This document shows positions 7,501 to 58,998 of a DNA stretch of 64,000 nucleotides, piece after piece; position 1 is the first letter of the stretch; each line of letters begins with the position of its first letter. Position numbers and translations under genes: made by a program. The notes below the pieces were generated by a model. It saw only the letters and a list, made by a program, of their open reading frames with translations, did no database searches and was not told where the DNA came from. The stretch comes from Zeus faber (taxonomy: Eukaryota > Chordata > Actinopteri > Zeiformes > Zeidae): positions 44,192,223 to 44,256,222 of the forward strand of contig OY482846.1 in assembly GCA_960531495.1 (NCBI GenBank), given 5' to 3'.

Positions 7501-7509
7501 GAGGCGTCT

Positions 7510-10300
7510 GCCTCATGATCAACAGCAGCTGGTGTAACCCGAACAACATCAAGACTCTCTCCTGCTCACCGAACCTGGAACAGCTGACCATCTCATGCCC
7601 TCCATACGACCTTCCCCGGGAATTCAGCATGGTCATCATCACAGCCGTATACATTCCAACGCAAGCGGACACCGTCACAGCACAATCGGACCTATATGAT
7701 TTGTTGTGCAGACTTCAAAATAAACGTCCCAACACGGCTGTGGTGGTGGCTGGGGACTTTAACAGGGAGAACGTTCAAAAGTTCTGCTTAATTTCCATCA
7801 ACACATCACGTGTGCCACCAGGGGAGAAAGAACTTTGGACCACTACTACACACCGTACAAGAATGGGACAAGAGTCGAGACATCACCAAGGTTTGTACTG
7901 CTGGTACAAACCTTGGTGATGTCCCGTCTCGACTACTGCAACGCCCTCTTAACAGGCTTGCCGGCCTGTGCGGTGAAGCCACTACAGATGACACAGAATG
8001 CGGCGGCGCGACTGGTGTTCAACCAGCCAAAGAGGGCACATGTCACTCCGCTGCTCATCGAGCTCCACTGGTTACCTGTAGTCGCTTGCATCAAGTTCAA
8101 GTCTCTTATGCTGGCCTACAGAGTGATTGCTGGGAACGCTCCCACCTACTTAAATGCTCTTGTAAGAGCACATATTGCCCCCCGGATGCTACGCTCGTCA
8201 AATGGGCGTCGCCTGGCTCTGCCGGCCATACAGCCACAGCAATCCAGGCTATTCTCATTTGTAGTCCCACATTGGTGGAACGAGCTGCCAAAAATGACCA
8301 GAGCGGGGACCTCCCTCTCTGTCTTTAAGAAGCACTTGAAGACCCAGCTCTTCAGTGAGTACCTCCTGTCCTAACCTACAATTACTTAGCACCACCTAGC
8401 AGTATTTATTGTTACACTTATGTTGTTGTTACACTAATCTCTGTCGCAATGTAGCTTGAATGTTATTCTCCCTTGTAAGTCGCTTTGGATAAAAGCGTCT
8501 GCTAAATGACCAAATGTAAATGTAAATGTAAATGTAAATGTAAGACCGTCTCAGTCCCTGCTTTCGGGAAATCCAATCACACATCCATCTCGTTACTTCC
8601 TGTTTACAGGCTGTGCATCAACCGGTGAACGGTAGTGACGAGGGATGTAAAGCTGTGGTCTGACCAATCAGAGGCCGCGCTTCAGGACGCTCTGCGTGAA
8701 GTCAACTGGGACATGTTCCAATCAAGTTCCAATGACGTCAACGAGTTTACGGAAGTAGCTACGAGCTTCATAGCTACGTTGGCGGACAGCATTGTTCCCA
8801 CAGTGAAAGTTTGGCTATTTCCAAAACAGAAATCGTGGGTCGATAAATCCATCCGTGGCGCTCTGAATGCTCGCACGGCCGCTTACATGGACAACTACAA
8901 AGTGGCGTCATACAAAACTACGGAGGGCGGTGAAGGACGCTAAACTGACGTACAGGGACACAGTGGAGCGTCAGATGGAGCAACGGGACACCAGACGCTT
9001 GTGGCAGGCGCTGCGGACTATGACCAACCACAGGAGCAGCCCCTCCCCAGCACGAGTGTGGACGCCTCCCTAGCCAATGAACTGAACTCCTTTTATGTGC
9101 AGTTTGAGGCTGGCGACAACACCGCTAGCTTGCAGGCAAATTGGAGTTACACCGCTGGGGTTAAGCGTGCACTCTCAGTGTCTGAGTATGACGTCAGGTG
9201 GGCTCTGATGCGTGTGAAAACAGGAAAGCTGCAGGCCCAGATGGCATATCTGGGCGAATACTGAAGACCTGTGCTAACCATATAGCCCCAGTGCTCACTA
9301 GGATATTCAACGCTTCCCTGACCGAGTCAGTGATCCAGTCCTAATTCAAGAGGTCCACCATCATCCCTATGCCGAAGAACGCCTCTCCAGCTTGCTTGAA
9401 TGACTACCGTCCGTAGCCCTCGACTCGGTGGGGATGAAGTTCTTCGAGAAGCTCATTAAGGATTACATCAGCGCCTCCCTTCCCCACACCATTGACCTGC
9501 GGCAGAACAGATCCATGGACGACGCTGTCTCCCAGGTACTGCACACCACGCTCACGCACCTGTATGGCCGGAAGAGGGCCTATGTGAGATTGCTGTTCAT
9601 TGACTACAGTTCAGCTTTCAACACCCTAGTCCCCACCAGACTGGCTGTCAAGCTGCGGGAGCTAGGACTGAACACGCCGCTGTGTGCCTGGACCCTGGAC
9701 TTCCTCACAGCCAGGCCCCAGGTGTTTAGGGTGGGGAGGCACACGTCCAGCTACCTCACCCTGAACACAGGACCCCCTCAGGGCTGTGTTCTCAGTCCCC
9801 TACTGTACTCCCTGTATACACATGACGAGGTGACCAGGTCCAGCTCCAACACAATCATCAAGTTTGCTGACGACACCATCATGATGGGCCTGATCAGTGA
9901 CGACAACAAGAAAGCCTACCGCAAGGAGGTGGCTGATCTGTCCCTCTGGTGCCAGGACAACAGCCTCCTTCAAGTACCCGGGAGTCCACATCACGGAGTC
10001 GATAAACCTGGACTATACATACAGACACTCAGGTGAGAAAGGCGAGGCAGTGGCTTTCACCACCTCAGGCAGCTGAAGAAATTCAGAGTCTCAGTGAGGA
10101 TCCTCAAGTCCTTCTACTGTGGAGCGGTGGAGAGCATCCTGACAGGCAACATCACTGCCTGGTTTGGGAACTGTACTGCTCAGGACAGGCGGGCCCTGCA
10201 GAGGGTGGTGCGGTCAGCTGAACGTACCACTGGAACTACCCTCCCCTCCCTGCGGGACTTATACACCGGGAGGTGTAGTAGCAGAGCCCCAAAAAACCGG
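7510..10300 (+). mobile_element. Jockey/CR1-group LINE, split copy
   Basis: Pieces in order: AP-endonuclease (VYIPTQADTV, then VVVAGDFN), continuing after an L2 insert (7874-8542) with DVKLWSDQSEAALQDALREV and RGALNARTAAY. Reverse transcriptase follows, with FIDYSSAFNT, PPQGCVLSPLLYSLYTHD and the catalytic block IIKFADDT. After LWCQDNSL it jumps to VPGSPHHG; the copy at 57.7-58.4 kb has about 45 more residues here, so this one has an internal deletion. It ends in SILTGNITAWFGNCTAQDRR and stops near 10300 without its usual 3' tail. Stops and frameshifts make it inactive. Its 5' edge meets the Gypsy remnant directly. Confidence 0.85.
7874..8542 (+). mobile_element. L2-clade LINE 3' end nested in another LINE
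   Basis: It encodes the C-terminal part of the L2 polyprotein (LVQTLVMSRLDYCNALLTG, AAARLVFNQPKRAHVTPLL, then FSFVVPHWWNELP), stop at about 8373. The 3' UTR has the fish L2/V-SINE-type tail GTCGCTTTGGATAAAAGCG and TCTGCTAAATGAC, with terminal AAATGT repeats. It separates KNGTR from KTVSVPAFGKS of the host LINE, proving later insertion. The reading frame over about 500 bp is intact, so it is fairly young. Confidence 0.9.
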
Positions 10301-14335: not shown

Positions 14336-16330
14336 TGCAGGCTTTACCATTTTCTAGTTACCAAAGTTTCAGACCGAGACAACAGGTGATTAGCCACTCG
14401 GAAACCAAAGAGCCCTATGGATTGGCTTCTTTGCATCACCTGTTGTCAGCCAATGAGGCCTCACGAAAAAGCTGTCGAATCCATCATACCATAGTCATTC
14501 ATATCATACGACAATAAAAAACAACAACAAACCACACAGTCTTAATTTCCCCCCTGCTTGTTCATTTTTTGTATTAAATTACCATTGCCCTCTAAACAAA
14601 TTACAAATTCTATTCCCTCTATTTCAACTTGCATGGAGTCCAGGCCTGCAACAAACACATTTGCGTACGTTGTTTGCGCATATACGCATCCGCACGCACG
14701 CGCACGCACGCAGGCGGATACGAGAAAATACAATTTTCCACACGACTGGCCCAAACTTATCCAACCAAACAGTGTTGTGTCATTAGGTGCAAGTGGGAGA
14801 TCAGCGAAGCTCCGAGATTGGAGATCTGCAGAGTTACTCCCGGGCGCCCCCTCCTCCAAAAAAATAAAAATAATAAAAAAATAAAAACCCTCGGAGGAAA
14901 AACTCTCCCGGCAAAGTGAACGTATGCAGTCTGAAGCATCGTGGGGCGGATGGAAAATGTACAGAGCAGTGAAGGTGCGACGCGTCCGGTAAGTTTACTT
15001 CTGCCGGGAGGAAAAAAATAGCGTGGTCTCGAAAGTGAGCTCATTGGGCGGGGTTATTCTACCCGGTACCACGCAAAGGAAATACCATCGGGCTGCTTTA
15101 TTCACTGCTTGCTGAAAAAAAACTCTGCAGAATGAATAACTTCACGGAAATAATAACAGATGGGGTTTTCAAAATCAATCATCTCACTGTTATTGTAACA
15201 AAAATATTGGCATTCCACCAAAGATAAGAACTTCACACCGAATGTGTAATTGCACCCAACCGTTGGATTCACCCCCTAGGGGCTGTTGGATGAACTGCGT
15301 CTGGGTTTCGCATCACAGAGTATGTCAAGGGAAATAGGAGGGCTGATTGGATATTTACCGGTTAAGCAGGAACTTTAAAACTGCCTTAATATAGAGTTAA
15401 CAAAGCGCGAACAAAAATAAAGAATAAACACAATTCACCGACAGAACATAATAAGAGATTTATACTGAGAGACAGTGTATGTGGTGACATCCAAGGTTAA
15501 CGTTAATAATGTCATTACTGTGACTTATTCACCTAGTTTTAAACCCAGCTCCAATAAAAAAACTTAACTGACGTCACATGTCAATAGTGTAGGGTCGGAC
15601 TGAAAGTTGTGGTAAATGTAGAACAACTTTAACGCATCCCAGAGCCTTGAACAGACGTGCAAATTCAGCACTCCCCATAGCGATTAATGGAATTCTGGTT
15701 TGTTCTGGTTGTTTGTCTGATTGGGTGTGGAGCAGGCTTTAATGTGTCCTTTTCTTTTTAGCCGAGACGGAAACGTTTTTATTTCAACGCAATATATATT
15801 TCACTCATTATATAAAAAAAGTTTGAGCGTTCGAAAAAATGATATATATATATATAATAGAAGCTTTTAATGAGCCGATCAATTTGGGAAGTTTAGACAA
15901 TCATCAAGCTTGTTCTCTGAATTGCCTTCTATAACATTTGATTTAAAACGGGTGCTATTTCCTTTAAAGACAAATACTGGCTTTACATCAAAGATCGACA
16001 TCGGCCTGAAAATCGTGGGTTGAATGTGCTCCTTGGGTCAAGGTGAGTTTAAATGCCAGTACATCACCACCCACCTACACAAATACAGACATGCCTCTTA
16101 TTGATTGCGATGGACACACTGAGGTCTAAAAACAGCCTTTGAGCGATGCATGCTGGACAGAGCATCGATCCACAGAACAACAATAACGGATTGCATGAGT
16201 TTAACATTTAACTCTGTGTTTGTGTGGTCATTTGAGGCGATCATTCATTCCTCTCTCGCTCTCTCTCTCTCTGTCTCTCTCCCTCTCTCTTCTTTATTCA
16301 TCAACTTTTGTCTTAATTTGGCGGTCAGCC
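14336..16330. other. Intron stretch without a recognised gene
   Basis: AT-rich sequence with a short (TA)n at 15843-15856 and a CT-rich patch at 16250-16290 just before the Tx1-type LINE. No domain-bearing frame was found. Confidence 0.5.
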
Positions 16331-16339
16331 GGGCACCGA

Positions 16340-18660
16340 CTCTGTCCCTATGGCACGGAACGCGGGTCCAGTCGATCCCCGGTGTGAGTGTGGAGCGGGT
16401 CCTGGACTCTGTGGCCCCGGGACGTCGGGTCCAAGAACCTGTTTTTCGCTGCTAGAATGAGCGGGCAGTCGATTTTGTGAAGCAGGAGCGCTTCGTGGCC
16501 CAAATGGTGGAGAGCGGAGTCACAGTGGACGACCCGTTTGTGCAGGTGTCGCCGCTGGTGCGGCCCTCCACCAGGGTGGTGGCCCCATTCATCTCCAATG
16601 AGGCAACCAGAGCGAGAGCCGCAACGCTTCGGTAAAATTGTAAGCCTGTTTAAAACAATCGCACTGGGGTGTAAAAAGGAGGAGCTGCAGCATGTGCAGT
16701 CCCTGCGGAGGCAGGTTCTCAGGCCGCTCAGCGCCTCGGAGCAGGAGCTGGACATCAGGTTCAGGGTCAAGCATGAAGAGGGTTACTACATGATTTATGG
16801 CAACTCGGGAAACATGAAGTGCTATGGTGAAGTACGGCACAAGAAGGCCGGGTGATTGCAGAGGTGGCGCGCTGCCGGGGAGCCAGCTGCCGGGGAGCCA
16901 GCTGCCGGGGAGCCAGCTGCCGGGGAGCCAGCTGCTGGGTACCCCCCAATCCGGGTGTGGGGGACACCCCGGCTCTGTGCCCCCCCCCGGACACCGGGGA
17001 GCACTTTATTTTAGCAGGGGACTGGAACGGCACTGTGGATTTTACTGTGGACAGGACTGGTGAGGAACCCCCCCCTTCAGTCCACCACCACCACTGTCTG
17101 CACTTCTCACACAGTTCAGTTTGGTTGATGCCTTGAGGATTTAACACCCTGACTCCAGGCAGTACACCTGGGTGAAGGGGTAGAGGGTGAGTGCAGCCAG
17201 GCTGGACAGGATCTATGTGTGCAAGGCCGTCAGCCTCAGGTTAGCACGGAGTTCTATCCCCCCGGTTGGTTATACAGATCACCATTTCATTTCTATTCAA
17301 CTTTGTTTTTTAGCCAAGAGGAGAAACATCCTAACACCAGATTTTACAGAACAGGTTCTTTTGTGATTGTTGTAAGGATTTTTGGGCTTTTTGGGGCACA
17401 AAGAAATAGGATTTTGAGTCCTTGAGCAAGTGGTGGGAAGTGGGGAAGGCCCAGATCCGGACTTTCTGCCAGCAGTACACTGCATACTGCACTACACACA
17501 CACACCAGCTAAGCACCGTGGAGACAGAGACTAAAAATATAGAAAACATGTCAATGTCAATTATTATATATAATTATTATGTCAATTAATGATAACGATG
17601 CTCCCAGCAGTTTTTTCTTTCATTTGGAAGGACTGCGGCCCAGAGGAAGCTGATGGCCTGCCTCAGTCTGCCCGACGGGACAGTGACCGCAGACCGGCAG
17701 AGATGTGGCGGTGGAGTTCTATGCTACCCCCTACAGGGCAGAGGACCGGGTGGAGGAATCCACCACACAGCTTCTTCAAGGGCTCCCTCAGCTGTGAGCT
17801 GAGGAGCGGGTCGCCCTGGATGCCCCCATCACCCTGGAGGAACTCACCGCTGCAGTGGGGCAGATGGCACTGGGCAAGGTGTATGGGCTTCCTGCTGAGT
17901 TTTTCAGACACTTCTGGAGCTGCCTGGGGCAGGACCTCATGGACGTCCTGCTGGAATGGGTGGGAAGGGGCTCCCTGGCGGCCTCCTGTCATCGGGCTGC
18001 CCTGTCTCTGCTGCCCAAGAAGGTAGACCTTGTGCTCCTCAAAAACTTGACGCCTGTAGCCCTCCTCTGTGCTGACAACAAGGTGCTCCCCAAAGTGCTG
18101 GCCAACAGGTTCAGAGAACACTTGCTGGTGGTACACAGAGACCAGGCCTACTGCATCCCTGACGGGGCCATCACTGACAATTTATTTTTAATGGGGGGCA
18201 TTTTTGACACTAAATTATATGATTCACTCAGGGTGTACTCTCACTGGATCAAGAGAAGGCTTTTCATCGGGTTGACCACTTTATTGGGGCATTGTGTATG
18301 GTCAAGGTGTCTGAGCCGTCCCATACCAGTAGGGAGGGGGATTAGCCAGGCCATCACAGTCTCAGCCTACGCCAACGACATCAGCGTCAGGCAGATGTTA
18401 TCTCACTCGTAGACCGCCTTTAAATCCCTCAGGGGGCCTCGTCTGCAAAAGTAAACTGGGAGAAGAGTGGGGCCCTGCAGGTGGGGGAATGGAAGGAGGG
18501 GGCACCCCCCCGGTCTGGGGAAGGGTAGGGATGAGAGTGCTAAGGGTGCATCTAGGCTCAGAGCAGTTTCAGGAGAAAAACTGCGAGGGTCTGCTGGAGA
18601 AGAGGAGGAGGAGATCAATTATTTTTTAGAGGGGCTGTCTGGACCATCATGATGAATGAC
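16340..18660 (+). mobile_element. Tx1-type LINE remnant
   Basis: ORF1-like region first: KIVSLFKTIALGCKKEELQH and EGYYMIYGNSGNMKCYGEVR, a nucleic-acid-binding protein with a damaged zinc knuckle. A 15-bp tandem repeat follows. The endonuclease part reads FILAGDWNGTVDFTVDRTGE and AARLDRIYVC, then YTDHH. The reverse transcriptase part includes QMALGKVYGLPAEFF, LLPKKVDL, KVLPKVLANRFREHL and AYCIPDGAITDNLFLMGGIF. A deletion then removes most of the palm, and the catalytic YADD reads YAND. Many frameshifts; inactive. Confidence 0.85.
16872..16935 (+). repeat. 15-bp minisatellite inside the Tx1-type LINE
   Basis: Four near-perfect copies of CTGCCGGGGAGCCAG. In one frame it encodes repeated LPGSQ; all three frames stay open. 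Confidence 0.9.
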
Positions 18661-19018
18661 GTGTTGCTGCTGCATTTTGGATTATTTATTTGTTTATGTA
18701 TTTCATTTTTGAATTTCTATTACGGAGAGGGAAAAATGTGACGGGAATACTTAATTTTGTTTGTTGCTTTTGTTACTGTCAACATGAAAATATGTTTCCT
18801 AAAAGGTTTCTCTCTCTCTCATTCTCTCTCCTCATATGAAGTATGACTTCATCTGTCACTACTTTTCCCCCACGTTCTTCAACATTGAAGTAGCTTTTAG
18901 CGAGCCACCTCGGTTAAAACCAAGAAAATACCCCCTTATTGTTAATTGACATCAAGGTAAGATTCACATACTATAATATCCAATAAAATGTCCATATACC
19001 GTTTGGTAGATTGCACGC

Positions 19019-19023
<5 letters not shown>

Positions 19024-19066
<43 letters not shown>
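19024..19066. repeat. (CA)n microsatellite forming a splice donor
   Basis: About 21 units. On the ZRANB3 strand this is (GT)n starting with the first intron base after ATACAG. Confidence 0.95.
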
Positions 19067-19068
<2 letters not shown>

Positions 19069-19171
19069 GTATTCTGTTTCCCTGACAGCGGCTCAGGGCC
19101 TCGGGCAGGTCGTCCCAGTTGTCCAGCTGGATGTCCAGAGGCACAAAGTTACAGTTTAACGGGACGTCATC
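19067..19171 (-). CDS. zranb3: ZRANB3 exon, middle of substrate-recognition domain
   Basis: It encodes residues 532-566: DDVPLNCNFVPLDIQLDNWD and DLPEALSRCQGNRIQ. Human reads MSCNFIPLDIKLDLWEDLP at this place. The acceptor is TTGTCTTTCAG. The exon ends ATACAG, and the 5' splice site is simply the first GT of a (GT)n microsatellite filling 19024-19066, so the intron begins GTGTGTGTGT. Phase 0 at both ends. Confidence 0.95.
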
Positions 19172-22664: not shown

Positions 22665-24242
22665 CAGTGGGGAGAACAATTATTTGATACACTACCGATT
22701 TGCAGGTTTTCCCACTTACAAAGCATGTAGAGGTCTGTCGTTTTTATCATAGGTACATCTCAACAGTGAGAGACTAAATCTAAAACAAAAATCCAGAAAA
22801 TCACATTGTATGATTTTTAAATAATTAATTTGCATTTTATTGCATGAAACAAGTATTTGATACATCAGAAAAACAGAACCTAATATTTGGTACAGAAACC
22901 TTTGTTTGCAATTACAGAGATCAAGACATTTCCTGTAGTTCTTAACCAGGTTTGCACACACTGCAGCAGGGATTTTGGCCCACTCCTCCATACAGATCTT
23001 CTCCAGATCCTTCAGGTTTCGGGGCTGTCGCTGGGCAACACAGACTTTCAGCTCTCTCCAAAGATTTTCTATTGGATTCAGGTCTGGAGACTGGCTAGGC
23101 CACTCTAGGACCTTGAGATGCTTCTTACGGAGCCACTCCTTCGTTGCCCTGGCTGTGTGTTTCGGGTCGTTGTCATGCTGGAAGACCCAGCCACGCCCCA
23201 TCTTCAATGCTGAGGGAAGGAGGTTGTTGGCCAAGATCTCGCGATACATGGCCCCATCCCCAATACGGTGCAGTCGTCCTGTCCCCTTTGCAGAAAAGCA
23301 TCCCCAAAGAATGTTTCCACCTCCATGCTTCACTGTTGGGATGGTGTTCTTGGGGTTGTTCTCATCTTCCCCCAAACATGGCGAGGGGAGTTTAAACCAC
23401 AAAGCTCTATTTTGGTCTCATCAGACCACATGACCTTCTCCCATTCCTCCTCTGGATCATCCAGATGGTCATTGGCAAACTTCAGACGGGCCTGGACATG
23501 CGCTGGCTTGAGCAGAGGGACCCTGCGTGCGCTGCAGGATTTTAATCCATGACGGCGTAGTGTGTTACTTGTGGTTTTCTTTGATAGTGTGGTCCCAGCT
23601 CACTTCAGGTCATTGTCCAGGTCCTGCCGTGTAGTTCTGGGCTGATCCCTCACCTTTCTTATGATCATTGAGGCTCCATGAGGTGAGATCTTGCATGGAG
23701 CCCCAGTCCGAGGGAGATTGACTGTCATCTTGAACTTCTTCCATTTTATAATAATTGCGCCAACAGTTGTTGTCTTTTCACCAAGCTGCTTGCCTCCTGT
23801 CCTGTAGCCCCTCCCAGCCTTGTGCAGGTCTACAATGTTGTCCCTGATGTCCTTAGACAGCTATCTGGTCTTGCCCATTGTGGAGAGGTTGGAGTCTGAT
23901 TGATTTGAGTGTGGATAGGAGTGTTTTATACAGGTAACAAGTTCAAAGAGTTGCAGTTAATACAGGTAATGAGTGGAGAATGGGAGGGCTTCCTAAAGAA
24001 AAACAAACAGGTCTGTGAGAGCCGAAATTATTACTGGTTGGGAGGTGAAATACTTATTTCATGCGATAAAATGCTAATTAATTATTTAAAAATCATACAA
24101 CGTGATTTTCTGGATTTTTGTTTTAGATTCCGTCTTTCACAGTTGAGATGTACCTATGATAAAAATGACAGACCTCTACATGCTTTGTAAGTAGGAAAAC
24201 CTGCAAAATCGGCAGTGTATCAAATACTTGTTCCCCCCACTG
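22665..24242 (-). mobile_element. Tc1-like transposon (family B), near full length
   Basis: It is flanked by TA on both sides, with ends CAGTGGGG and CCCCCCACTG and inverted repeats of roughly 200 bp that each contain GACCTCTACATGCTTTGTAA or its complement. The length of 1578 bp suits an intact Tc1 element of the long-repeat type seen in fish. The transposase gene is on the minus strand. Confidence 0.95.
22830..23882 (-). pseudogene. Tc1-like transposase pseudogene
   Basis: It starts MGKTR at 23882, followed at once by a TAG stop in the sixth codon. Downstream, the DNA-binding part ([20 protein letters not shown]) and catalytic core are recognisable: [31 protein letters not shown] and [15 protein letters not shown], giving the DDE triad positions. 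A frameshift after RHVWGK separates the first half from the second, and another stop lies near the middle. It is inactivated but well preserved. Confidence 0.92.
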
Positions 24243-24315: not shown

Positions 24316-24425
<110 letters not shown>

Positions 24426-24427
24426 AC

Positions 24428-24511
24428 CTTGGTGTACAGATAGATTCGGTCCGTGTTCTGACTGGTGCAGAACTGGAGGCCGGGGTACCGAGGCCGAGAG
24501 GCGCTGTCGTT

Positions 24512-24549
<38 letters not shown>

Positions 24550-24597
24550 CCCCTCTGGATGAAGCCGGACATGGTGGGCGCTCCTCTGTCTCATTGC
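24428..24597 (-). CDS. zranb3: ZRANB3 exon, poly-Asp run and start of substrate-recognition domain
   Basis: It encodes residues 475-531. The first part is an unconserved linker with an unbroken run of 12 aspartates (residues 492-503), each coded GAT. It ends in YPGLQFCTSQNTDRIYLYTK, matching human LMFCASRNTDRIHIYTK, the start of the SRD. The acceptor is CATTCCTAG and the donor ACCAAG|GTACGT, followed at once by a (GT)n tract of about 105 bp. Phase 1 to 0. The aspartate codons form a trinucleotide microsatellite that may vary in length between individuals. Confidence 0.93.
24512..24547 (-). repeat. Coding (GAT)12 trinucleotide repeat
   Basis: Twelve perfect ATC units on the plus strand, read as twelve GAT codons (Asp) inside the ZRANB3 exon. 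Confidence 0.97.
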
Positions 24598-28649: not shown

Positions 28650-30430
28650 CAAATTGATTCAATTTCTATGACTTGGGATTAACATTTGTTTTTTATCCAG
28701 TCATTTCCATACGAATTTCTGCATAATGGACCATTACGCAGTCGGAGGAGAGGCAGACGGCCAACGGCAGGGAACCAATGAGCCTTTCAGCGTGGCTTTA
28801 GCAGCTTCCACTGGTGACTGCTGTGTAAAAACATTAGCAAATATAAAGTATATGCGTTCATGGGTGCGGCATTCAAATTCTAGCAACACAGGCGTTTGCC
28901 GGGCAAGTATCACATGGCAGGATTAAAATGGGGCTTGGATACCCATGAAAATACTTCAACTTGAAATCCCAAACGCATACAGGCGTGTCCAGAGCTGTTG
29001 AAGGGTTAAACATTATACTATTGGACCGGTGTCATGCTGCCTAATCAAAATAAACTCCTAACTGTGTTACTGCTACTGGAACCGAAACCAAAAAGTGAAA
29101 TCACTACCATTTGTACCAAACATTTTCATTTGGGTGCGGCACTGTAAATCAGCCCGGTTCCCCGCGGAGTGGGTTGGTTTTAAGGTGGAAACCCACACGA
29201 GGGCTTGGGAAGACACCAGCGCGAGCTCTCATCTGCCAGACACATACATGGCAGCCAATCACAACATTCCGACCCACCTGTGCCCTGTAGCCGATCACAT
29301 TTGTTTCGCGTTGCCAGAGTAATTGCAATTGTTACTTATTGCACCTTACTTCATTATTTTCATTTCGTTGAGCTGTTTATTACTTATTGTCGAGTGTGTC
29401 TTGTACTTATTACAAGACACATTCCATTCCTGAAGACAACATGTTTTAGCACCACAAAACTTAAAAAATCCTATCACTTCTTTATCTGTAGTGAAACCTT
29501 GCAGGTCTGAAGTGTTCAGAGTTGCTTTATTGGCAATTTGTTTTTTGTTTTTTTAATTTCTTTCTTTCATCCCCCCCTCCCCCCTCCGCTGTTTGCCACG
29601 GCAGAACGCGCCAACTGCATTAAGTGGGCCATTTTAACGGTGGGAGCAATTCATCTTACAAAAGCCGTCTTATTAGACTGTCACTTACACAGTATGAACA
29701 GAGCCTTTTCAAACCACCCCGGAGGGATTTTACTTGTTATTTTACTGCCGAAAGAAAAGAAAAACATCGCCCTAATTGGACCGTGTCGCCTCATCTTCTT
29801 CTGGATCGACAAAAAAAAAAAAAAAAAAAAAAGATTAAAATAAAACGACGCCCCCAAGAAGGAAAAACAAAAAGATAAATGACTTGAATAGTGCTCACAT
29901 TCGGGCCGCATTTCCACTATGCTAACTTTGATGGGACCTACGCCAGGTTTGTTAACCGCTCCCACTGTAAATACGGAAAAAAACTCGTAGAATACCATTT
30001 TTACTGCCTTTACTTCCGGTCCAAATCCAGACACGCAGATGGGTTTTTTGTATGGGGCAATCTTACCGCATCCCAGCGTGCCCGAATATTGCCCGACGAA
30101 ACTACACGGTCGACAGCCATTTTGGAAGTTGATCGCGGATCGACGGAAGCGCTTCTCCAAGGCTCCCCACTACGCCCAGTCAGATTTGGGGGCTGCCTTT
30201 GAAGTTCGAGAAAAAAAAAAAAAGCCCTCTCGACCCCGTCGTCGTTCGTCTGTTTTGCCTGCGTCAGTATGTCGACCTTCTGAATCGCACAATGTAAACA
30301 CAATGGACGAAAAATCGGAATTACGCAAATTTATTGGAATCGGGCATCGGGGCCTTCTCGTGGTGGAAGCTGCCTTTTGAGGCTGGGGTTTGGATTAGGT
30401 TGGTTCAAGAGTTTAATGGTGTGAGTGAAA
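28650..30430. other. Intron stretch without a recognised gene
   Basis: It has an A run at 29811-29832. Positions 29890-30360 have open frames on both strands with even base composition, but no domain and no phase-matching splice pair was found. Confidence 0.45.
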
Positions 30431-30431
30431 T

Positions 30432-30545
30432 AGATGGATGGATGGGTGGGTGGATGGGTGGATGGGTGGATGGATGGGTGGGTGGGTGGATGGATGGATA
30501 GGTTGGTGGGTGGATGGAGGGATGGGTGGGTGGATGGATGGAGGT
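30432..30545. repeat. (GGAT)n / (GGTG)n simple repeat
   Basis: Degenerate GGAT and GGTG units over about 110 bp. Confidence 0.93.
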
Positions 30546-30687
30546 ACGGTATTCCCCCTCATTTGAATCTTGCCGACAGTGCCGGCACCTCAATGAGATT
30601 GCTGTCTGTGTTTACCTACTTTATTATTAGAGGGGGGAGCGCCTTGGCCTGTCTGCCAGGCGAGGAAACTAATATCGGAGAAATCAA

Positions 30688-30690
<3 letters not shown>

Positions 30691-30748
<58 letters not shown>
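30691..30748. repeat. (GT)n microsatellite
   Basis: About 29 units with one T interruption. Confidence 0.96.
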
Positions 30749-30922
30749 AGGGCGCTCCACTGTCTACTCTGCGCCCCCTCCTTCGGACACTGCTGGCAGG
30801 TAGAGTGACACAGCTAAGCATCCCAAAGCATTCTGTACTTACAGACTGTTCTAGATGTTCCAATCATCGCCTCCACGAATAACGAACGAGTGTTTGTTTC
30901 CCTGTAGTTCAGTGGGAGGCGA

Positions 30923-30923
<1 letters not shown>

Positions 30924-30991
<68 letters not shown>
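30924..30991. repeat. (GT)n microsatellite
   Basis: About 34 pure units, 175 bp from the preceding run. Confidence 0.97.
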
Positions 30992-30993
<2 letters not shown>

Positions 30994-31385
30994 AGACGGT
31001 TGTTTGAAAAATGGCTCAATCAAAACAGAAACTCAGCATAACAACTTCAGGTGTGGCATGCATTTTTATTTTATAGCTCTTCATATTATGCCTAGTGTAA
31101 ACACTGATTAGTAATGAGCCCTAAGTTCGCACACCGGAAGTAACGATTCAGCCTCCGCCCTATTCAGGGGAGCTTTTCCATTAGCTGTAGCTCCTCCAAC
31201 CTTGTGTCTCGATACAGTACTACATGTCAAGGTAGTTACTACACCGCTAGACGCAGCCTTTCCTTTAATACATGGTCATAATTCCTATTCATAAATTATA
31301 CCCTTAACAGTATTACCAATAACAAATTCATCCTGAGCATTTTGTTACTATTCTGTTCTGCATTTTTTGACAAGTTGTAAATATG

Positions 31386-32267
31386 CACCGATTAGCCACA
31401 TTATAATCACTGAGGTGAAGTGAATAACGTTGATCATCTCATTCCAACGGCGCCTGTCAAGGGGTGAGATATACTAGGCAGCAACTGAACAGTCGGTTCT
31501 TGACGTTGATGTGCTGGAAGCAGGAAAAATGGGGAAGCGTAAGGATCTGAGCCACTTTGACAAGGACCAAATTGTGATGGCCAGACGACTGGGTCAGAGC
31601 ATCTCCAAAACGACAGGTCTTGTGGGGTGTTCCTGGTAAGCAGTGGTTACTACCTACCAGAAGTGGTCCAAGGGTGGACAACGGGTGAACCGGCGACAGG
31701 GTGATCGGCGCACATGGGCTCATTGATGTACGTAGGGAGTGAAGTCTAGCCCATTTGGTCCGATCCCACAGAAGAGCTACTGTAGCACAAATTACTGAAA
31801 AAGTTGATGCTGCTGTGATAGAAAGTAGTCATAGCACACAGTGCATCACAGCTTGCTGTGTATGGGGCTGTGTAGCTGCAGAATGGGCAGAGTGCCTATG
31901 CTGAACCCTTTCCACCACTGAAAGCACCTACAATCGACACGTGAGCGTTAAAACTAGAGCATGGAGCAATGGAAGAAGGTGGGCTGGTCTGATGAATCAG
32001 GTTTTCTTCTACATCATGTGGATGGGTGGGGTTAGGGTCTGATCCGATGGAGCATCTGTAGGATGTGTTCGAACAACAAGCATGACGCCTCAACTTGCAG
32101 GACTTAAAGGATCTGCTGCTAACGTCTTGGTGTCAGATACCACAGGACACCTTCAGAGGTCTTGTGGACTCCATGCCTCCACGGGTCAGAGCTGTTTTGG
32201 CGGCACAAAGGGAGCTACATAATACTAGCTCAATTAGTGGTGGCTTCATTGTTGTGGCTGATCGGTG
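31386..32267 (+). mobile_element. Tc1-like transposon (family A, copy 3), deleted
   Basis: The ends CACCGATTAGCC and GGCTGATCGGTG are inverted repeats. The transposase start is present, [20 protein letters not shown] near 31530, followed by [14 protein letters not shown], then a stop and frameshifts. The middle catalytic part is deleted between VWMGGVRV and the C-terminal TCRT-like region. It is about 0.9 kb, against roughly 1.6 kb for a full element. Confidence 0.92.
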
Positions 32268-32269
32268 CA

Positions 32270-33075
32270 TATAAGACAATTAGATAGATTTCGATTTCTT
32301 TCATGTACTTGCATAAGCTGTAGTATAAGCTTGAGAATATTCGAAAAGCGTGTGACCCTGCTTATTGACACGTTCTGAACAACATGGAAGCTGCCTTGAA
32401 GCCATGGGGAACGCGACAAACACAACTAACGTAAACTACACTAAAACAGGGTTCATTCTGGCATTACAAAATTTAATTCAAGGACTTTCAAGTACGACTT
32501 TTGACCACTATTTTTTTCATTTTCAAGGACATCTTCACGCAAAACAAATATTAACAAATTGGCAATGTGATGTTCATGAATGAAAATATTATAATGTTAG
32601 TCTCATTGTCTATTATTTATGAGTATATCTATTATCTATACTGTATATCGATTATCACTCTCATTATCATCTACTATTATAAGTGTCTATTTCCAACCAT
32701 GCTCGATTACATTGACAATCACTGGCATAATCCATGTGGTAAAAGCCATTCAGCAAAAGTCTGCAATTTTGTGGTAATAAACCAGCGAGAACAGCCCGTG
32801 ACAACCGAAACGTTGTGCTGTGAACTGAAATAGGCACTATGGCCCTGCCAGACCGTCACATGAGTAATAACAGTAAGAATAATAATGATAATCATTATAA
32901 TATAAAGTGATAACCCGCTCCACTCCTCACATCTCCTCCATGGCCCCATATGGAAGGGGGGTATACACTTCTATTATTAGTGATGACATTGGGGGGTGTA
33001 ATGCCGGGCAGCTGTTGAGGTGCCACCAGCCAATTTTCTCCAAGATATGAGGAGTGGGGAGATTACAGGTGTCTG
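32270..33075. other. Intron stretch without a recognised gene
   Basis: AT-rich sequence with short open frames only. Confidence 0.5.
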
Positions 33076-33079
33076 AGTG

Positions 33080-33122
33080 AGTGTGTGTGTGTGTGTGTGT
33101 GTGTGTACGTGTACGTGTGCGC

Positions 33123-33167
<45 letters not shown>
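33080..33167. repeat. (GT)n microsatellite next to the proposed 33177 exon
   Basis: A (GT)n run interrupted by TACGTGTACG and CGCGCG. It reads (CA)n on the ZRANB3 strand and starts about 10 bases after the proposed donor. Confidence 0.95.
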
Positions 33168-33168
<1 letters not shown>

Positions 33169-33176
33169 AGGATTAC

Positions 33177-33428
33177 CCCGTGTGTGTTCAGGGAGGGGGC
33201 GGCTGTGGTCTCGCTCTCCCCGTGCTTGTTTGCCTCCGCGCCTCCCCTTGTTGGCCGCCCCGACGGGATCCCAGTGTTTGTGTTCGGGGCCCTCTGCCTC
33301 CTCTCCCCGCTCTTCCTCCTGTTTGTCTTGGCAGACCCCCACCGGCCGCCCCCCGCCTTCCGGCTCGCAGTCGGAGTCGGAGAGGACGACGCAGGGCGGG
33401 GTGGTCCACCGCGGCTCCGGCTCGGGCG
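33177..33428 (-). CDS. zranb3: Probable additional ZRANB3 exon with SUMO-interacting-like motif
   Basis: This is an open stretch of 252 bases on the ZRANB3 strand, between the zinc-finger exon and the poly-Asp exon. It has a good acceptor (TCCACCCCCTCCCAAG) and a usable donor (CACGGG|GTAATC). Both borders are phase 1, exactly what the two neighbours need, so it joins as residues 391-475. It is GC-rich and hydrophilic, with acidic blocks (KQEEERGEEAEGPEHKHWD) and a basic tail. Residues 403-410, CVVLSDSD, have the hydrophobic-core-plus-acidic form of a SUMO-interacting motif. The human protein also has a long unconserved linker here, so similarity cannot confirm it. Because it is symmetric, it could be a cassette exon. 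The evidence is splice signals, phase and composition only. Confidence 0.62.
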
Positions 33429-33826
33429 CTTGGGAGGGGGTGGAGACAAGGATCGATTTATTTATTTGTTACTCTCGGCGACTCTTTCACAGTGAAATGG
33501 GTCTCGGGAGTGTCGAGATTGGAGCGCTGGACGCCGAGAAGCCGGACAAAAAAAAAAAAAAAAGGGGTCACAAAAGATTTTAAAACATTCTGGGAATTCT
33601 TCCACCGAATGGAAAAAAAGACGGATAGATACACAGACAGACAGACATATACAAGAAACAACAAATTGTCAATAAAATAAAGGTAAACATTAACTGAAAC
33701 ATATTTTTGCAATATACAATAAGTAAATGATGACAATAACAAGAAAAAAAAATTGGCAATGTAAAATAAAACTAGAAATGAACAATAAATAGTACAATTA
33801 ACCTTAACTTTTTATATATAGTATAT

Positions 33827-33921
<95 letters not shown>

Positions 33922-35880
33922 AAACTACTAGGAGGCATTTGGGCAGTTTTTAAAGGCCCCAGCACATTTAACACCGTTCTGCAGTCGCTGGCTCACCGTA
34001 AAAAAAAAAAAAAAAATTTTAAAAAACCCCAACAAACAAAATAAAAAAACAAACCAACCATCCAAAGCTGTTCATCGGAACAATTAATTCCCCGGATCCT
34101 CTCTGTGTTTGCTTAATTGCTTGTTTGCAGCCGCTCGATCAAAAACCAAACAGAACGGTTCGGAGCGAGTGCTGCATCTGTGCTCCGCTTAAGACACAAA
34201 CAAGCGGGGAAGTTCAAGGCGCTGGCGGTGGAACGGTGCCAATCAGAGGTGATTTCTGCGTGAGCCACACAAGTGATGAACGTTTATGGGGGAAGACGCT
34301 TGATGAATTCCGGGTTTATCCTGTCGCAGCTCCTGAACTCCGAAACTAAAGCAACGTTTTAAAAGCTGCGACTCCCAACCTGTCAAGTGTGCATGTCGTC
34401 GGAGCACGTGAACGTGAACGGCTGGGTTCATGGCCAAGTCGGTCAAATTGTGCAAAAATCCGAGTACAAAGAGGAAAGGCGGCGCTGAAAAGGCTAGAGG
34501 CAGAAAAATGAAGTCACTTCAAGCTGATGCTACAACTTGCATGAAGATAAGTGATATGTTTGCGTGCGCCAGCAGCAGCAGGAGCACTGCCGGTGGCGTG
34601 CAACAGCATTTGTTTTTCCCAAATTGCAAGGGATTTCTTTTTCCCCCCAAAGGTAGCACCGCCGTGTTCAAGGCCAGTCGGAAATGCTTACCGTGCTGCC
34701 TTTGAGCGGAAATATACATTTGAGATATTATTTATGATTTATGGACCAGAAACACCCTTACACTACTACGAATATGTAGAAGCTGGTGTTTGTTTATTTA
34801 AATATTATTTTATTGTTTCTAGACTGGCGATACCCAGGCCAAGAGTAAGAGTCTGTACCTTAGCAGTAGACCAAAAAAAACGTACAATACGTATTTTTTG
34901 TAAAATTTTAGATATAATTTATAGTTTGTTTGTTTATTTGAATGTTATTCATTGGTTAACTGCACTTTAGAAGTAGAAATGTGTACGGTTAGTACCTGAT
35001 GTTCATAATTATTTATTGTTTATAGACCTGCCCTGAAGAGTAAGTCCTTCAAGTTTCAAGGTCAAAGTGATCAAATCGGCAACGGTTATCTGACTCATTT
35101 CCTGTGTTGAAATAGATTATACAGCCTGTTCAAATATAGACATAGACGGATATAGACACTGACTGTCTGAATCTATCATGGTATCCTCGCAGTGGTGGCC
35201 TGCTGGCAACAAACCTTTCACTTGCTCTTAAAATAGCTATGATTTAGTGTTACAGTAGCCTAGAGTATCCATCCATTATGCGTATAAGTGGTGGTATAAG
35301 GGCTGGTGTGTTTCTATGTGCGTCGATGGGGCAGGGGTGGTGGTGGTGGTGGGGGCAGTGGTGGAGTGTCCGTGGGCTGGGTAAAAAAGTCAGGAGCCAT
35401 CTTTTAGTCCTAATCCGTCTCTGACTATTGGGATCAGGTTTATGAAAAAATGAAGGAAAAACACATTTTTACCCCGGTCATCTGACGTTGTTCTACATAA
35501 TTTTGGCCAGAACAAGCTTTCCGTTTCTCTTTTTATTTTGGAATTTGATTTATTAGCACAAAAATAGTGGGAGGAGCCCTTTGCCAAATAGGGAAATATC
35601 TATAAACCCATGGTGATGATTTGTTGAAGATGGAGATAAAGATTCATGATTGTTATGAAGCTTGACTGTAATACCGATAGCAAGTATCGCCAAAATGGAG
35701 TATGTCATGATTGGATTGACAAAAATAATGCCATCAAAATGTGTATTATTGAAAACACCCAAGTTGGTGAAATTAACTGGCTTGTGACATTTTAGTTTAT
35801 AATCCATCTTGTGATTGGAGAATCACTGTGAAAGTTGCTGAGCTCACCAAACACCCGATTTGGAGCCCTCATACCATGTT
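33429..35880. other. Intron stretch without a recognised gene
   Basis: It holds a compound (TA)n-(CA)n-(TA)n microsatellite at 33816-33922 and A-rich patches. No gene was seen. Confidence 0.5.
33816..33922. repeat. Compound (TA)n(CA)n(TA)n microsatellite
   Basis: TA units, then about 27 CA units, then TA units, forming a nearly symmetric block. Confidence 0.95.
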
Positions 35881-35887
35881 TTGGCAT

Positions 35888-36335
35888 GTTGTGGCACGGT
35901 GGCGCAGTGCATTGCACTGCTGCCTCACAGCAAGAAGGTCCTGGGTTCGATTCCCGCCTGGGGCGCTGTTGGCACTGTGCCCGGCGGGTTATCTCCCAAA
36001 TAGGAGCCTTTCTGTGTGGAGTTTGCATGTTCTCCCCGTGCTCACATGGGGTTTCCTCCACCTCACGTCAGTAAGGACCCCCACCAAAAACATGCACCCA
36101 TCATTGTCTGACCAGCAATGGACAATTATCACCAGGTCCCCGGGCGCGTCCACGTACGCTGCCCACTGCTCCTGGCTGTGCCCCCGGAGGAAGGACAAGC
36201 CAGGATGGGTCAAAAGCAGAGGATCCATTTCACCGGACACCATCAAAGCATGTGTGTGTGTGCAAGCATGTGTTGTAGTGTGGTGTGTTGCGTGACTAAT
36301 AAAGACTGTTTCCTTCTTCTTCTTTCTTTTGTACA
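35888..36335 (+). mobile_element. SINE-like dispersed repeat
   Basis: The head GGCACGGTGGCGCAGTGCA with GGTTCGATTCC resembles Pol III A and B boxes of a tRNA-derived promoter. The body has GTGTGGAGTTTGCATGTTCT and TTTCACCGGACACC. The tail is AATAAAGACTGTTTCCTTC with CTT repeats. From memory, such sequences are very common in fish genomes. No protein frame. Confidence 0.75.
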
Positions 36336-38093: not shown

Positions 38094-38299
38094 TATCAGT
38101 AGAGTGTGGGGCCTCGCACATCTCGCAGTAAGTAAGGAGGGCGCTGTTGGCGTAGGTGCAGGCCGCACAGCTCCACTTCTCATTGGGGGGGGGTGCTATG
38201 CGAGACAGCCGAGGCGTGGCCAGGGGGGAGGAGGCCGGGCTGGAAGTGCCCGAGCTGGCTCGGCCCCTCAAGGACTTTCGCCTCCCCGGGAATCGGGAC
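38094..38299 (-). CDS. zranb3: ZRANB3 exon, NZF (RanBP2-type) zinc finger
   Basis: It encodes residues 322-391. After a Ser/Pro/Arg-rich linker comes a full NZF: W364, C366, C369, N373, C380 and C383 in WSCAACTYANSALLTYCEMC. The T370-Y371 pair after the second Cys is the TY/TF type linked to ubiquitin binding. In human ZRANB3 this finger binds K63-linked polyubiquitinated PCNA. The acceptor is ACTACTCCCAG and the donor GATA|GTAAGTG, phase 2 to 1. Confidence 0.97.
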
Positions 38300-39251
38300 C
38301 TGGGAGTAGTGCTGCCCGATAAGGATTGATATATTATTAAGGGCTGGCAGCGTCACACACTGTGATGTCTGAAAGGTAATTGGCCGTAATCTTCAATCTA
38401 GCTCACAACAAGAACCAGATGTGAAAAGGTTGTTTTGTACATGATTCCTCGCAAAATGACATGTTAGACAGATCTCATGTTCCTTTCGGGCCCTTTTGGG
38501 GCACTGCACAACTTGCAAGGCTTTTGGATTTAGAAGAAGGGGTTTCGAATTCAAAAGCATACCATGGAATATACAAATTTGGTGTTAAAATACCTCAGAC
38601 TATAAAGTCTTGCATGTCGTCCGTCTCTACCTGGGTGTCTCTGTGCCACGAGGCGTCCTGATCCTTTTAACCTGGGGGGAGAAGTCCGAATCTGGTGAGG
38701 GTGATGCCTCCTGGACCTGGACCTGGACCTCCTCCTCCTCATCCTCCTCCTCCTCTTCTCCTTCCTCCTCCTCCTCCTCCTCTCTGGCCCTTTTCCTTCT
38801 CTTCTTTTCGCTGGTGCTGGGCGAGAAGAAGGTGCGGATGTCGTGCTGCTTGTCCTTCTCAAACTGGGAAGATGAAGAGAGAACCGCACAGGCTTCCATG
38901 CATCAGCGCGCTCTACTGATTTGTAATGGGAACGTCTTAGACGCCAGAGACGGCGGCACCAAGGGCGCAAGGCCCCAGTCACACGGGCATTTCTGACCGC
39001 AAAATATCGCGCTGAATTCAATTTGTTTCAATGCAATGGCCGCGACTGGTGGATTTGCTTCGGGCAGTAAAGTCATTGCAAAGCTTTAGAGTAGAGTTTA
39101 GCGCATGCAGAATTATGATGCATATTGTATGACAGTGTATTGAAACGTCCCGCTGCCCAAAGCATGTTTATGAAGATAGTCAAATAACAAATTGACTTAT
39201 TTACAACTAAGAATATAGTCTCTGGTGGCCTCTTGACAAGGACAGACTCAC
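38300..39251 (-). other. zranb3: Two short introns around the PIP-box exon
   Basis: The introns at 38300-38630 (331 bp) and 38864-39251 (388 bp) contain no recognised repeat. This is the only compact part of the gene: three exons within 1.4 kb. Confidence 0.85.
38631..38863 (-). CDS. zranb3: ZRANB3 exon, PIP box and acidic tract
   Basis: It encodes residues 245-322. It opens FEKDKQHDIRTFFSPS, in which Q250-I253-F256-F257 form a canonical PIP box (QHDIRTFF) that docks on PCNA; human reads QHDIRSFF. A Lys/Arg stretch (KKRRKRAR) follows, which could be a nuclear localisation signal. Then comes a very acidic segment of mostly Glu, and VQVQVQEASPSPDSDFSP. The acidic run is coded by imperfect GAG/GAA repeats and is unlike the human protein. 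The acceptor is CATCTTCCCAG and the donor CCCAG|GTAGAG, phase 0 to 2. Confidence 0.96.
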
Positions 39252-41326: not shown

Positions 41327-41506
41327 CTTGCGGTTGAGCATGCCCCACATAACGGTGTCGAAGGTGCCCTTGGCGATGAGGTAGTGCACGTGCACGGAGG
41401 AGGTCTGTCCGATGCGGTGGGCGCGGTCCTCAGCCTGCTTGACGTGGCCCGGGTTCCAGTACAGCTCGGCAAACACCACGTGGGTGGCCGCCGTGAAGGT
41501 CAGGCC
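41327..41506 (-). CDS. zranb3: ZRANB3 exon, helicase motif VI
   Basis: It encodes residues 126-185. [20 protein letters not shown] continues motif V. Q149-Q159, [11 protein letters not shown], is SNF2 motif VI with the arginine finger residues R153 and R156. It then runs [18 protein letters not shown] and ends MLNRK. In SNF2 enzymes this motif couples ATP hydrolysis to translocation on DNA. The acceptor is GGGGTCCCAG, preceded by a TG-rich stretch; the donor is CGCAAG|GTACCC. Sixty codons, phase 0. Confidence 0.97.
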
Positions 41507-46621: not shown

Positions 46622-46640
46622 CTGCCCACAAGACGCACGC

Positions 46641-46644
<4 letters not shown>

Positions 46645-46695
<51 letters not shown>
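46645..46695. repeat. (CA)n microsatellite at an intron 3' end
   Basis: About 25 units. It reads (TG)n on the ZRANB3 strand and lies some 24 bases before the acceptor AG of the 46502 exon. Confidence 0.96.
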
Positions 46696-56690: not shown

Positions 56691-58428
56691 TTATTCGTCA
56701 CATACATATACATACTTCCGTACATATATGCAGTGTAATGTCAATGCAACGCACCCGGTGATTACGCACATTATGTTCTAGATTGAACACAATAGCTACC
56801 TAATTTCTACTTGACTAACTAACTGAAACGAACTGATTCCTAAAACGTAATGCAGTAAGTAAATATAATAATACTGAATAAAATAAAATAACTCAAAAGT
56901 AATACTGGGTGGGGGTACAAAATAGAAATAAAGGGAATGGACTTACAGTATGTATATGGGATAGGTGATTATGTATATACAGATATGTGCATTAAAGTGG
57001 CATGTGAATTCACATTTACATTTAGTCATTTAGCAGACGCTTTTATCCAAAGCGACTTACAAGGGAGAATAACATTCAAGCAACATTGCGTCAGAGACAT
57101 TAGTGTAACAATAAATACTGCTAGGTAGTGCTAAGTAATTGTAGGTTAGGACAGGAGGTACTCACTGAAGAGCTGGGTCTTCAAGTACTTCTTAAAGACA
57201 GAGAGGGAGGTCCCTGCTCTGGTCATTTTTGGCAGCTCGTTCCACCAACGTGGAACTACAAATGAGAATAGCCTGGATTGCCGTGGCTGTATGGCCGGCA
57301 GAGCCAGGCGACGCTCATCTGACGAGCGCAGCACCCGGGGGGCAACATGTGCTCTTACAAGAGCATTTAAGTAGGCGGGAGCGTTCCCAGCAATCACTCT
57401 GTAGGCCAGCATAAGAGACTTGAACTTGATGCGAGCGGCTACAGGAAACCAGTGGAGCTCGATGAGCAGCGGAGTGACATGTGCCCTCTTTGGCTGGTTG
57501 AACACCAGTCGCACCGCCGCGAATAAAGTGAGGTAGTGTGTGTGGAGATATACAGCACAGTATACAACAGTACGGCGCAGCAATACAGTAACACCGAACA
57601 GAACAGCAATACAGCACAGTATGCAGTAACCCAGAACAGTGATACAGTATGCAGTACAGTATGCTACATACAGTACAGTAAGGCAGTGGGGCCTATGTGA
57701 GTGACTCAGTGAGGGCCCCTGGTGGGTTCAGCATTGACAGACTTTATAGCTTGCGGGAAGAAACTCAGTCTTTCTGTTCTCGCTGCGTGGGCGCTTGCCC
57801 AACCACAGCAGCTGGAACAGTCCGTTGTTGGGGTGATGAGGATCCTTCATGATCCTGCGTGCTCTGCTACTACACCTCCTGGTGTATAAGTCCTGCAGGG
57901 AGGGGAGGGTAGTTCCAGTGGTATGTTGGGCTGAACACACCACCCTCTGCAGGGCCCGCCTGTCCTGAGCAGTACAGTTCCCAAAGCAGGCAGTAATGTT
58001 GCCTGTCAGGATGCTCTCCACCGCTCCACAGTAGAAGGACTTGAGGATCCTCACTGAGACTCTGAATTTCTTCAGCTGCCTGAGGTGGTAAAGACGCTGT
58101 CTCACCTTTCTCACCTGAGTGTCTGTTTGTAAATTCCATGTTAAGTCCTCTGTGATGTGGACTCCCAGGTACTTGAAGCTGCTCACCCTGTCAACAGAAG
58201 CCCCATTAATAAGCAAGGGCGCGTGCGTCCTCAGTTGTAATCCTCTCCTAAAGTCCACCATCAGCTCCTTAGTTTTGCTGACGTTCAGGTGGAGGCTGTT
58301 GTCATGGCACCAGAGTGACAGGTCAGCCACCTCCTCGCGGTAGGCCTTCTCATCGCCGTCAGTGATCAGGCCCACCACGACGGTGTCGTCAGCAAACTTG
58401 ATGATGGTGTTGGAGCTGGACCTGGCCA
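56691..58428 (-). mobile_element. Jockey/CR1-group LINE, split copy
   Basis: The frame at 57728-58425 runs from RSSSNTIIKFADDTVVVGLI through TKELMVDFRRGLQL and VHITEDLTWNLQTDTQV to FGNCTAQDRRALQRVV and KDPHHPNNGLFQLL, about 230 codons without a stop. It starts inside the palm of the reverse transcriptase, so the copy is 5'-truncated. The 3' UTR is interrupted by an L2 copy at 57009-57527. The terminal TCTTGAA repeats are lost. It supplies the piece deleted from the copy at 7510. Confidence 0.9.
57009..57527 (-). mobile_element. L2-clade LINE 3' end nested in a LINE 3' UTR
   Basis: It encodes RLVFNQPKRAHVTPLLIELH to SFVVPRWWNELPKMTRAGTS and stops at about 57146. The tail on this strand is GTCGCTTTGGATAAAAGCG then TCTGCTAAATGACTAAATG. 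It is nearly the same sequence as the copy at 7874. GAAT is repeated on both sides as a short target-site duplication. Confidence 0.93.
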
Positions 58429-58998
58429 CATGAGCATTTCCATTCTGCTTATGGGTTCCTAACTTTTGGATATTTCAGTGGCGCTCCCAACTCGCTCATG
58501 TTGTCTCGATGCGGCAGGAGACTGGCAAATGTAATAATCCATCCAATGAGTCATGTCCCGAAGAGCCACGCTCCCCCATGTTTCTTGACATCGCTCCCAC
58601 GTGCAGATAAAGTAAGGGCAAAGCACCGCGGCCAAAAATATTTCTGCAAAGCTTCTGCTGCTGATTTGAGACACAGTGATGGAAACGGGATCAGGGAGCA
58701 GACACACTTCTGTCTACATCCTGGAAAGTGGCTGACCGCAGAAAACACTCAAATGTTTGTCTTGAATTCACTACATTTTTATAATTTAATATCACTATAT
58801 TACTATATGACTAATATTTTCTGTTATTCATTTAAATAGTTTTGGTTTGTAATTGTTTTTGTAGATCATTGCTTATAAGAAAGAGTAATAAATATTTTCA
58901 TAAATGAAGGGAAGGAAAAACCTTCCCGTCACGGTTGACAGTTTATTGATTACAGCCTCGTGCCAAGAATAAAGATATTATTCTTTTTATTTTCTATG

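Follow-up and report, generated by a model that had tools for sequence, protein, structure and literature searches.

The window, a 64,000-nucleotide stretch of Zeus faber contig OY482846.1, carries a minus-strand gene that, by its exon sequences, is ZRANB3, of which about the last three quarters, towards the C terminus, are present. A tblastn search with human ZRANB3, the probe being an approximate version of the human sequence, placed a collinear exon series from 55221 to 1219 against human residues 279 to 1079; the part equivalent to human residues 1-278 was not found within the window. When published human residues were compared with the probe sequence, 4 of 19 misfitted, 3 of those 4 lying between NZF and HNH. 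The exon at 3785-3593, independently of that probe, matches PDB 5mkw (named ZRANB3; 1.5e-15), and Pfam places a RanBP-type zinc finger in 38310-38094 (PF00641, 5.5e-08), Helicase_C in 41506-41327 and HNH in 1993-1862, which bears out the gene identity given in the earlier note. The domains follow one another in the order of ZRANB3 (C part of the SNF2 helicase, PIP box, NZF, HNH and APIM), and the human protein has the same domain set as the fish gene, being described as an SNF2-type motor with PIP, NZF, substrate-recognition domain, HNH and APIM (PMC12841045, PMC5481773).

Exon A (38631..38863, minus strand), found by tblastn with the human probe and with its edges set by splice consensus and reading frame, encodes the PIP box (QHDIRTFF) and an acidic linker. 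Exon B (38094..38311, minus strand) encodes the NZF zinc finger recognised by Pfam and ends in phase 1 at the donor ATA/GTAAGT (GAT A/GTAAGT), 38094 being its final base. Exon D, the recognised exon that follows (24428..24597, minus strand; tblastn and splice frame), starts in phase 1 at 24597 and encodes an acidic linker with a 12-Asp run, together with the first part of the substrate-recognition region, to which exon E (19067..19171, minus strand; tblastn and splice sites) also belongs. The 12 consecutive Asp of exon D come from a run of GAT triplets, and exon A encodes a Glu-rich run; acidic linkers derived from repeats thus flank the NZF on both sides.

Within the 13.5-kb intron between exons B and D lies a candidate symmetric exon, C (33177..33428, minus strand), with flanking AG and GT and a linker-like sequence. 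The earlier note had described a GC-rich, open segment of 252 bases that fits phase 1-1 between two exons and has splice sites, and this description was confirmed for 33428-33177 (252 nt, 71% GC, minus strand). Sequence, phase and open frame can be read directly from the DNA: the bases before the segment are ...CCCCCTCCCAAG, with a pyrimidine-rich tract and AG at 33429..33450 (minus strand) as candidate acceptor (0.6 bits), and the bases after it are GTAATC, a candidate weak donor at 33171..33176 (minus strand; score -0.08, about -0.1 bits). Since exon B ends and exon D starts in phase 1, the B-C-D and B-D splices are both open, giving an A-B-C-D-E product of 326 residues and an A-B-D-E product of 242 residues. 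The segment therefore has the AG and GT edges, symmetric phase and two open isoforms of a cassette exon. Its translation begins T-PEPEPRWTTPPCVVLSDSDCEPEGGG..., and the complete in-frame reading is TPEPEPRWTTPPCVVLSDSDCEPEGGGRPVGVCQDKQEEERGEEAEGPEHKHWDPVGAANKGRRGGKQARGERDHSRPLPEHTRG.

The main arguments of the earlier note for an exon here, the open frame and the splice sites, proved weak. Five of the six frames are open across the whole segment and T makes up only 6% of its coding strand (chance of one open 83-codon frame, ~0.31), so the open frame is not evidence for an exon and was dropped as support. Splice-site strength, scored with approximate weight matrices, was likewise dropped as non-discriminating: in the host intron 77 of 729 AG and 69 of 774 GT score at least as high as the sites of exon C, and 19 other symmetric open candidates (overlapping, at 9 places) beat its splice sum. 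Nor do weak sites exclude exon C, because some recognised exons score no better: those at 41506 and 38311 have acceptors of -1.5 and -1.2, and 41327 is a donor of -0.2 (in a scoring that left out exon H and usable donors of exons A, G, 465 and K).

We compared the segment with the coding signature of the gene, using a codon model built from 14 of the exons recognised (exon K left out and exon A one base too long; edges of exons 465, H and K were approximate here and in the periodicity, pseudo-exon and array analyses). In leave-one-out runs the true frame came first in 14 of 14 known exons, and the claimed frame of exon C ranked first of six, narrowly (-0.38 vs -0.43 bit per codon). Mononucleotide shuffles matched this score in 4 of 2000 cases in that frame and in 12 of 2000 in any forward frame; when the segment was split in thirds, some other frame outscored the claimed frame in each third. 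A plus-strand gene at the segment was considered and rejected: although open, all three frames of that strand score below the claimed frame. As a further comparison, we collected pseudo-exons that are symmetric, open and 150-350 nt long and that fall no more than 1 bit short of exon C at either splice site. This yielded 45, of which 27 lie outside regions classed as transposon (the region at 16.1-18.7 kb, which contains one of the four transposon-class loci, was classed as a mobile element by eye). Frame rank alone is weak evidence, since the frames had been preselected as open and 28 of the 45 pseudo-exons rank first; frame score and first rank together were equalled by 1 of the 27. This single pseudo-exon, at 26823-26656 on the minus strand, may be a second optional exon or a product of chance.

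GC content by codon position in exon C is 0.80/0.55/0.78, a coding-type periodicity with a chi2 of 14.8, where known exons run from 3.6 to 36.2. Of 6542 overlapping non-exon windows, 189 (2.9%) are at least as periodic. Most of these windows, 115, overlap four open reading frames with transposon-type Pfam matches (7 of the 115 overlap only an endonuclease match below Pfam's cut-off), 69 fall at 16.3-18.3 kb, which is rich in open reading frames without a transposon Pfam match, and 5 fall at 32.45-32.73 kb and are unexplained. Among 142 non-exon windows above 60% GC, 23% attain the periodicity of exon C, so composition alone is no proof. The high GC of the segment resembles that of the exons of the ZRANB3 gene, and 10 of 21 GC islands (200 bp, 0.62) lie clear of exon C and of every known exon. 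Two of the periodic places deserve mention in their own right. The region at 16300-18300 is rich in GC and open reading frames with coding-type periodicity, and of three open reading frames taken from 16.1-18.7 kb, one matches a pentapeptide repeat weakly in Pfam and the other two match nothing there; at 32453-32732, five overlapping windows show coding-type GC periodicity with no known exon or mobile-element match.

Searches with the segment itself returned little. It has no Pfam match, no repeat family covers it within 32400-34400 (among the 25 of 59 inverted pairs listed), and Rfam at gathering threshold gave no structural RNA over 30000-36000. A PDB search with the segment, its first residue entered as C and not T, gave two weak matches to designed-looking SAKe proteins, and a PDB search with the 20-residue motif peptide gave no match. 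In viral and prokaryote collections, where a fish sequence is not expected, 4 and 67 stretches fit a pattern and none is a relative. Elsewhere in the window we noted a transposase-type open reading frame at 22719-23417 (minus strand; DDE_3, 5.1e-11), reverse transcriptase RVT_1 matches at 57731-58474 (minus strand; below Pfam's cut-off) and 9404-10033 (plus strand), and an endonuclease match below Pfam's cut-off at 7503-7916 (plus strand).

At 33081..33167 (minus strand) the array scan found an array that reads (CA)n in the direction of the transcript, 9 nt from the donor edge of exon C. Among the recognised exons, 4 of 15 have a dinucleotide array no more than 25 nt from an edge (expected 0.23), and 2 of 20000 random placements reached 4 such exons. 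The arrays near ZRANB3 exon edges lie at 24318-24423, 19018-19066, 2002-2031 and 46640-46695; the array beyond exon E begins at the first intron base. CA repeats are bound by hnRNP L, which represses a CD45 exon (PMC3823766); the passages concerned do not deal with ZRANB3. By analogy, hnRNP L may regulate exon C through the (CA)n array.

Translation and pattern search identified within exon C the string CVVLSDSDCEPE (33358..33393, minus strand), where the linker reads C-V-V-L-S-D-S-D-C-E-P-E. Within the six frames of the window, the pattern [VIL]{3}S[DE]S[DE] has a single match, against a mean of 0.0 over 60 dinucleotide-shuffled versions, and none of 3000 segment shuffles contains it. For [VIL]{3}[DEST]{4} with two acids the window has 3 matches where 0.53 are expected, and again none of 3000 segment shuffles has one. 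Both patterns were chosen after seeing the motif, so these figures overstate the surprise. Looser SIM patterns show no excess in the window. An approximate ELM-like pattern with Cys allowed matches 3 times where 3.68 are expected (and in 2 of 3000 shuffles of the segment), and the strict forms hhXh and hXhh match 7 times where 11.27 are expected, with no match inside the segment. The published SIM core is hhXh or hXhh with h being I, V or L (PMC8616421), and the SIM has been termed a loose motif (PMC12751080). The C-V-V-L of exon C departs from the strict core by one residue, a Cys at a position reserved for I, V or L, and the acidic, phosphorylatable Ser flank SDSDCEPE follows directly. Of the reading in the earlier note, that a hydrophobic patch followed by acidic residues resembles a SIM, the string and its acidic Ser flank thus held, and the strict core was missed by one residue. 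The exon C string could, from its sequence, act like a SIM.

When the segment was included in a MAFFT alignment, the approximate human linker KKVQTISDCEKQ aligned opposite PPCVVLSDSDCEPE. The collinear SDCE match to this linker has a local score equalled by 26 of 1000 shuffles and, since the human sequence used is approximate, with 4 of 19 residues misfitting, is a lead only. At the collinear place the approximate human linker has only VQTISDCE and presumably no clear SIM, in contrast to the SIM-like string of the fish segment. Homology of the fish motif to a human pre-NZF string of the same approximate sequence, DIIDYESDVEPE, was also tried and rejected: the segment follows the NZF exon, and it is a stretch of the fish exon preceding the NZF that aligns with that string. 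That local match was equalled by 99 of 1000 shuffles.

Taken together, these results give 33428-33177 slightly better than an even chance of being an authentic, probably alternatively included, coding exon of ZRANB3; alternative inclusion is suggested by the weakness of both splice sites together with the (CA)n array just past the donor. The interpretation in the earlier note is partly supported, as periodicity and the best in-frame score lean, narrowly, to an exon. Somewhat short of an even chance is the reading that no exon exists and that a GC-rich, T-poor intron patch has by chance acquired AG and GT edges and an open frame. Five open frames in six, weak splice sites that 19 other symmetric candidates surpass, a B-D splice that joins cleanly and the 10 GC islands outside known exons and exon C all fit such a patch, but it would not by itself account for the coding-type periodicity and frame score, nor for the motif or the dinucleotide array close by. 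Very improbable, in our judgement, is a segment that is coding and yet derives from an inserted mobile element or retrocopy and not from ZRANB3: more than half of the equally periodic non-exon windows (115 of 189) do overlap open reading frames with transposon-type Pfam matches, but the segment has neither a Pfam match nor, among the inverted pairs listed for 32400-34400, a covering repeat family, and its phase agrees with both neighbouring exons.

Even a real exon might supply a fast-evolving linker only, with a fortuitous SIM-like string and no SUMO binding. We regard this as unlikely, its share being part of the probability given to the exon. Such a fortuitous match would be in keeping with a strict core missed by one cysteine and with the VQTISDCE of the approximate human linker; many SIM consensus matches, as PMC8616421 warns, are not true SIMs. 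It sits less well with the absence of hhhS[DE]S[DE] from all 3000 segment shuffles and with the presence of DAXX-type SDSD serines. Supposing that the exon is real, we judge SUMO binding by its product marginally more probable than its absence; an authentic exon and a SUMO-binding product, taken jointly, are somewhat unlikely.

Returning to the favoured reading of an authentic exon, transcription and splicing of C, as we infer them from the sequence, would separate the NZF, which binds K63-linked ubiquitin, from the substrate-recognition domain by 84 further linker residues. The VVL strand would pair with the SIM groove of SUMO, and the acids, together with phosphorylation of the two serines, would contact SUMO basic residues. 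Inclusion of exon C would then give ZRANB3 an option of reading SUMO beside its PIP box and NZF, with a predicted effect on recruitment to modified PCNA. The fullest form of this proposal, in which an optional exon of the fish lineage adds a phospho-regulated SIM immediately after the NZF and splicing sets whether SUMO is read in addition to ubiquitin on PCNA, or mixed SUMO-ubiquitin chains in a RAP80-like manner, is speculative and decidedly unlikely. If true, a splice-controlled SUMO reader would link fork reversal directly to SUMO-PCNA.

ZRANB3 is described as reading PCNA via its PIP box, APIM and ubiquitin-binding NZF (PMC12841045, PMC5481773). The term SUMO has 0 occurrences in the main text of a 2026 ZRANB3 review (PMC12841045) and none in that of a 2017 ZRANB3 structural paper (PMC5481773), and PMC6213728 mentions ZRANB3 and SUMO in separate passages. 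In a survey of mostly open-access literature, largely at the level of search listings, we saw no report of SUMO binding by ZRANB3.

The closest resemblance in sequence is to the SIM of DAXX, IIVLSDSD, both serines of which are CK2 targets and which is regulated by phosphorylation (PMC8616421). DAXX shares VL-SDSD and the two serines with the exon C string; at position 1 its Ile is replaced by Cys, and position 2 in exon C is Val. Unlike that of DAXX, the exon C string lies in a helicase/nuclease, between the NZF and the substrate-recognition domain, and its SUMO binding is only predicted. RAP80 likewise places a SIM beside a K63-type ubiquitin reader in one DNA-repair protein (PMC12751080). 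RAP80 reads via tandem UIM helices, whereas fish ZRANB3 would do so via an NZF, with a PIP box in addition and possibly with an optional exon. Yeast Srs2, a UvrD-type helicase, has its SIM and PIP box both at the C terminus; ZRANB3 is an SNF2 translocase-nuclease with a SIM that is only predicted. The two motifs of Srs2 recruit the helicase to SUMOylated PCNA, and SUMO-PCNA thereby recruits Srs2 in yeast (PMC12577367). In the best case, exon C would provide a splice-controlled SUMO reader beside the NZF, with a logic comparable to that of RAP80 (SIM and UIMs) and of Srs2 (SIM and PIP box).
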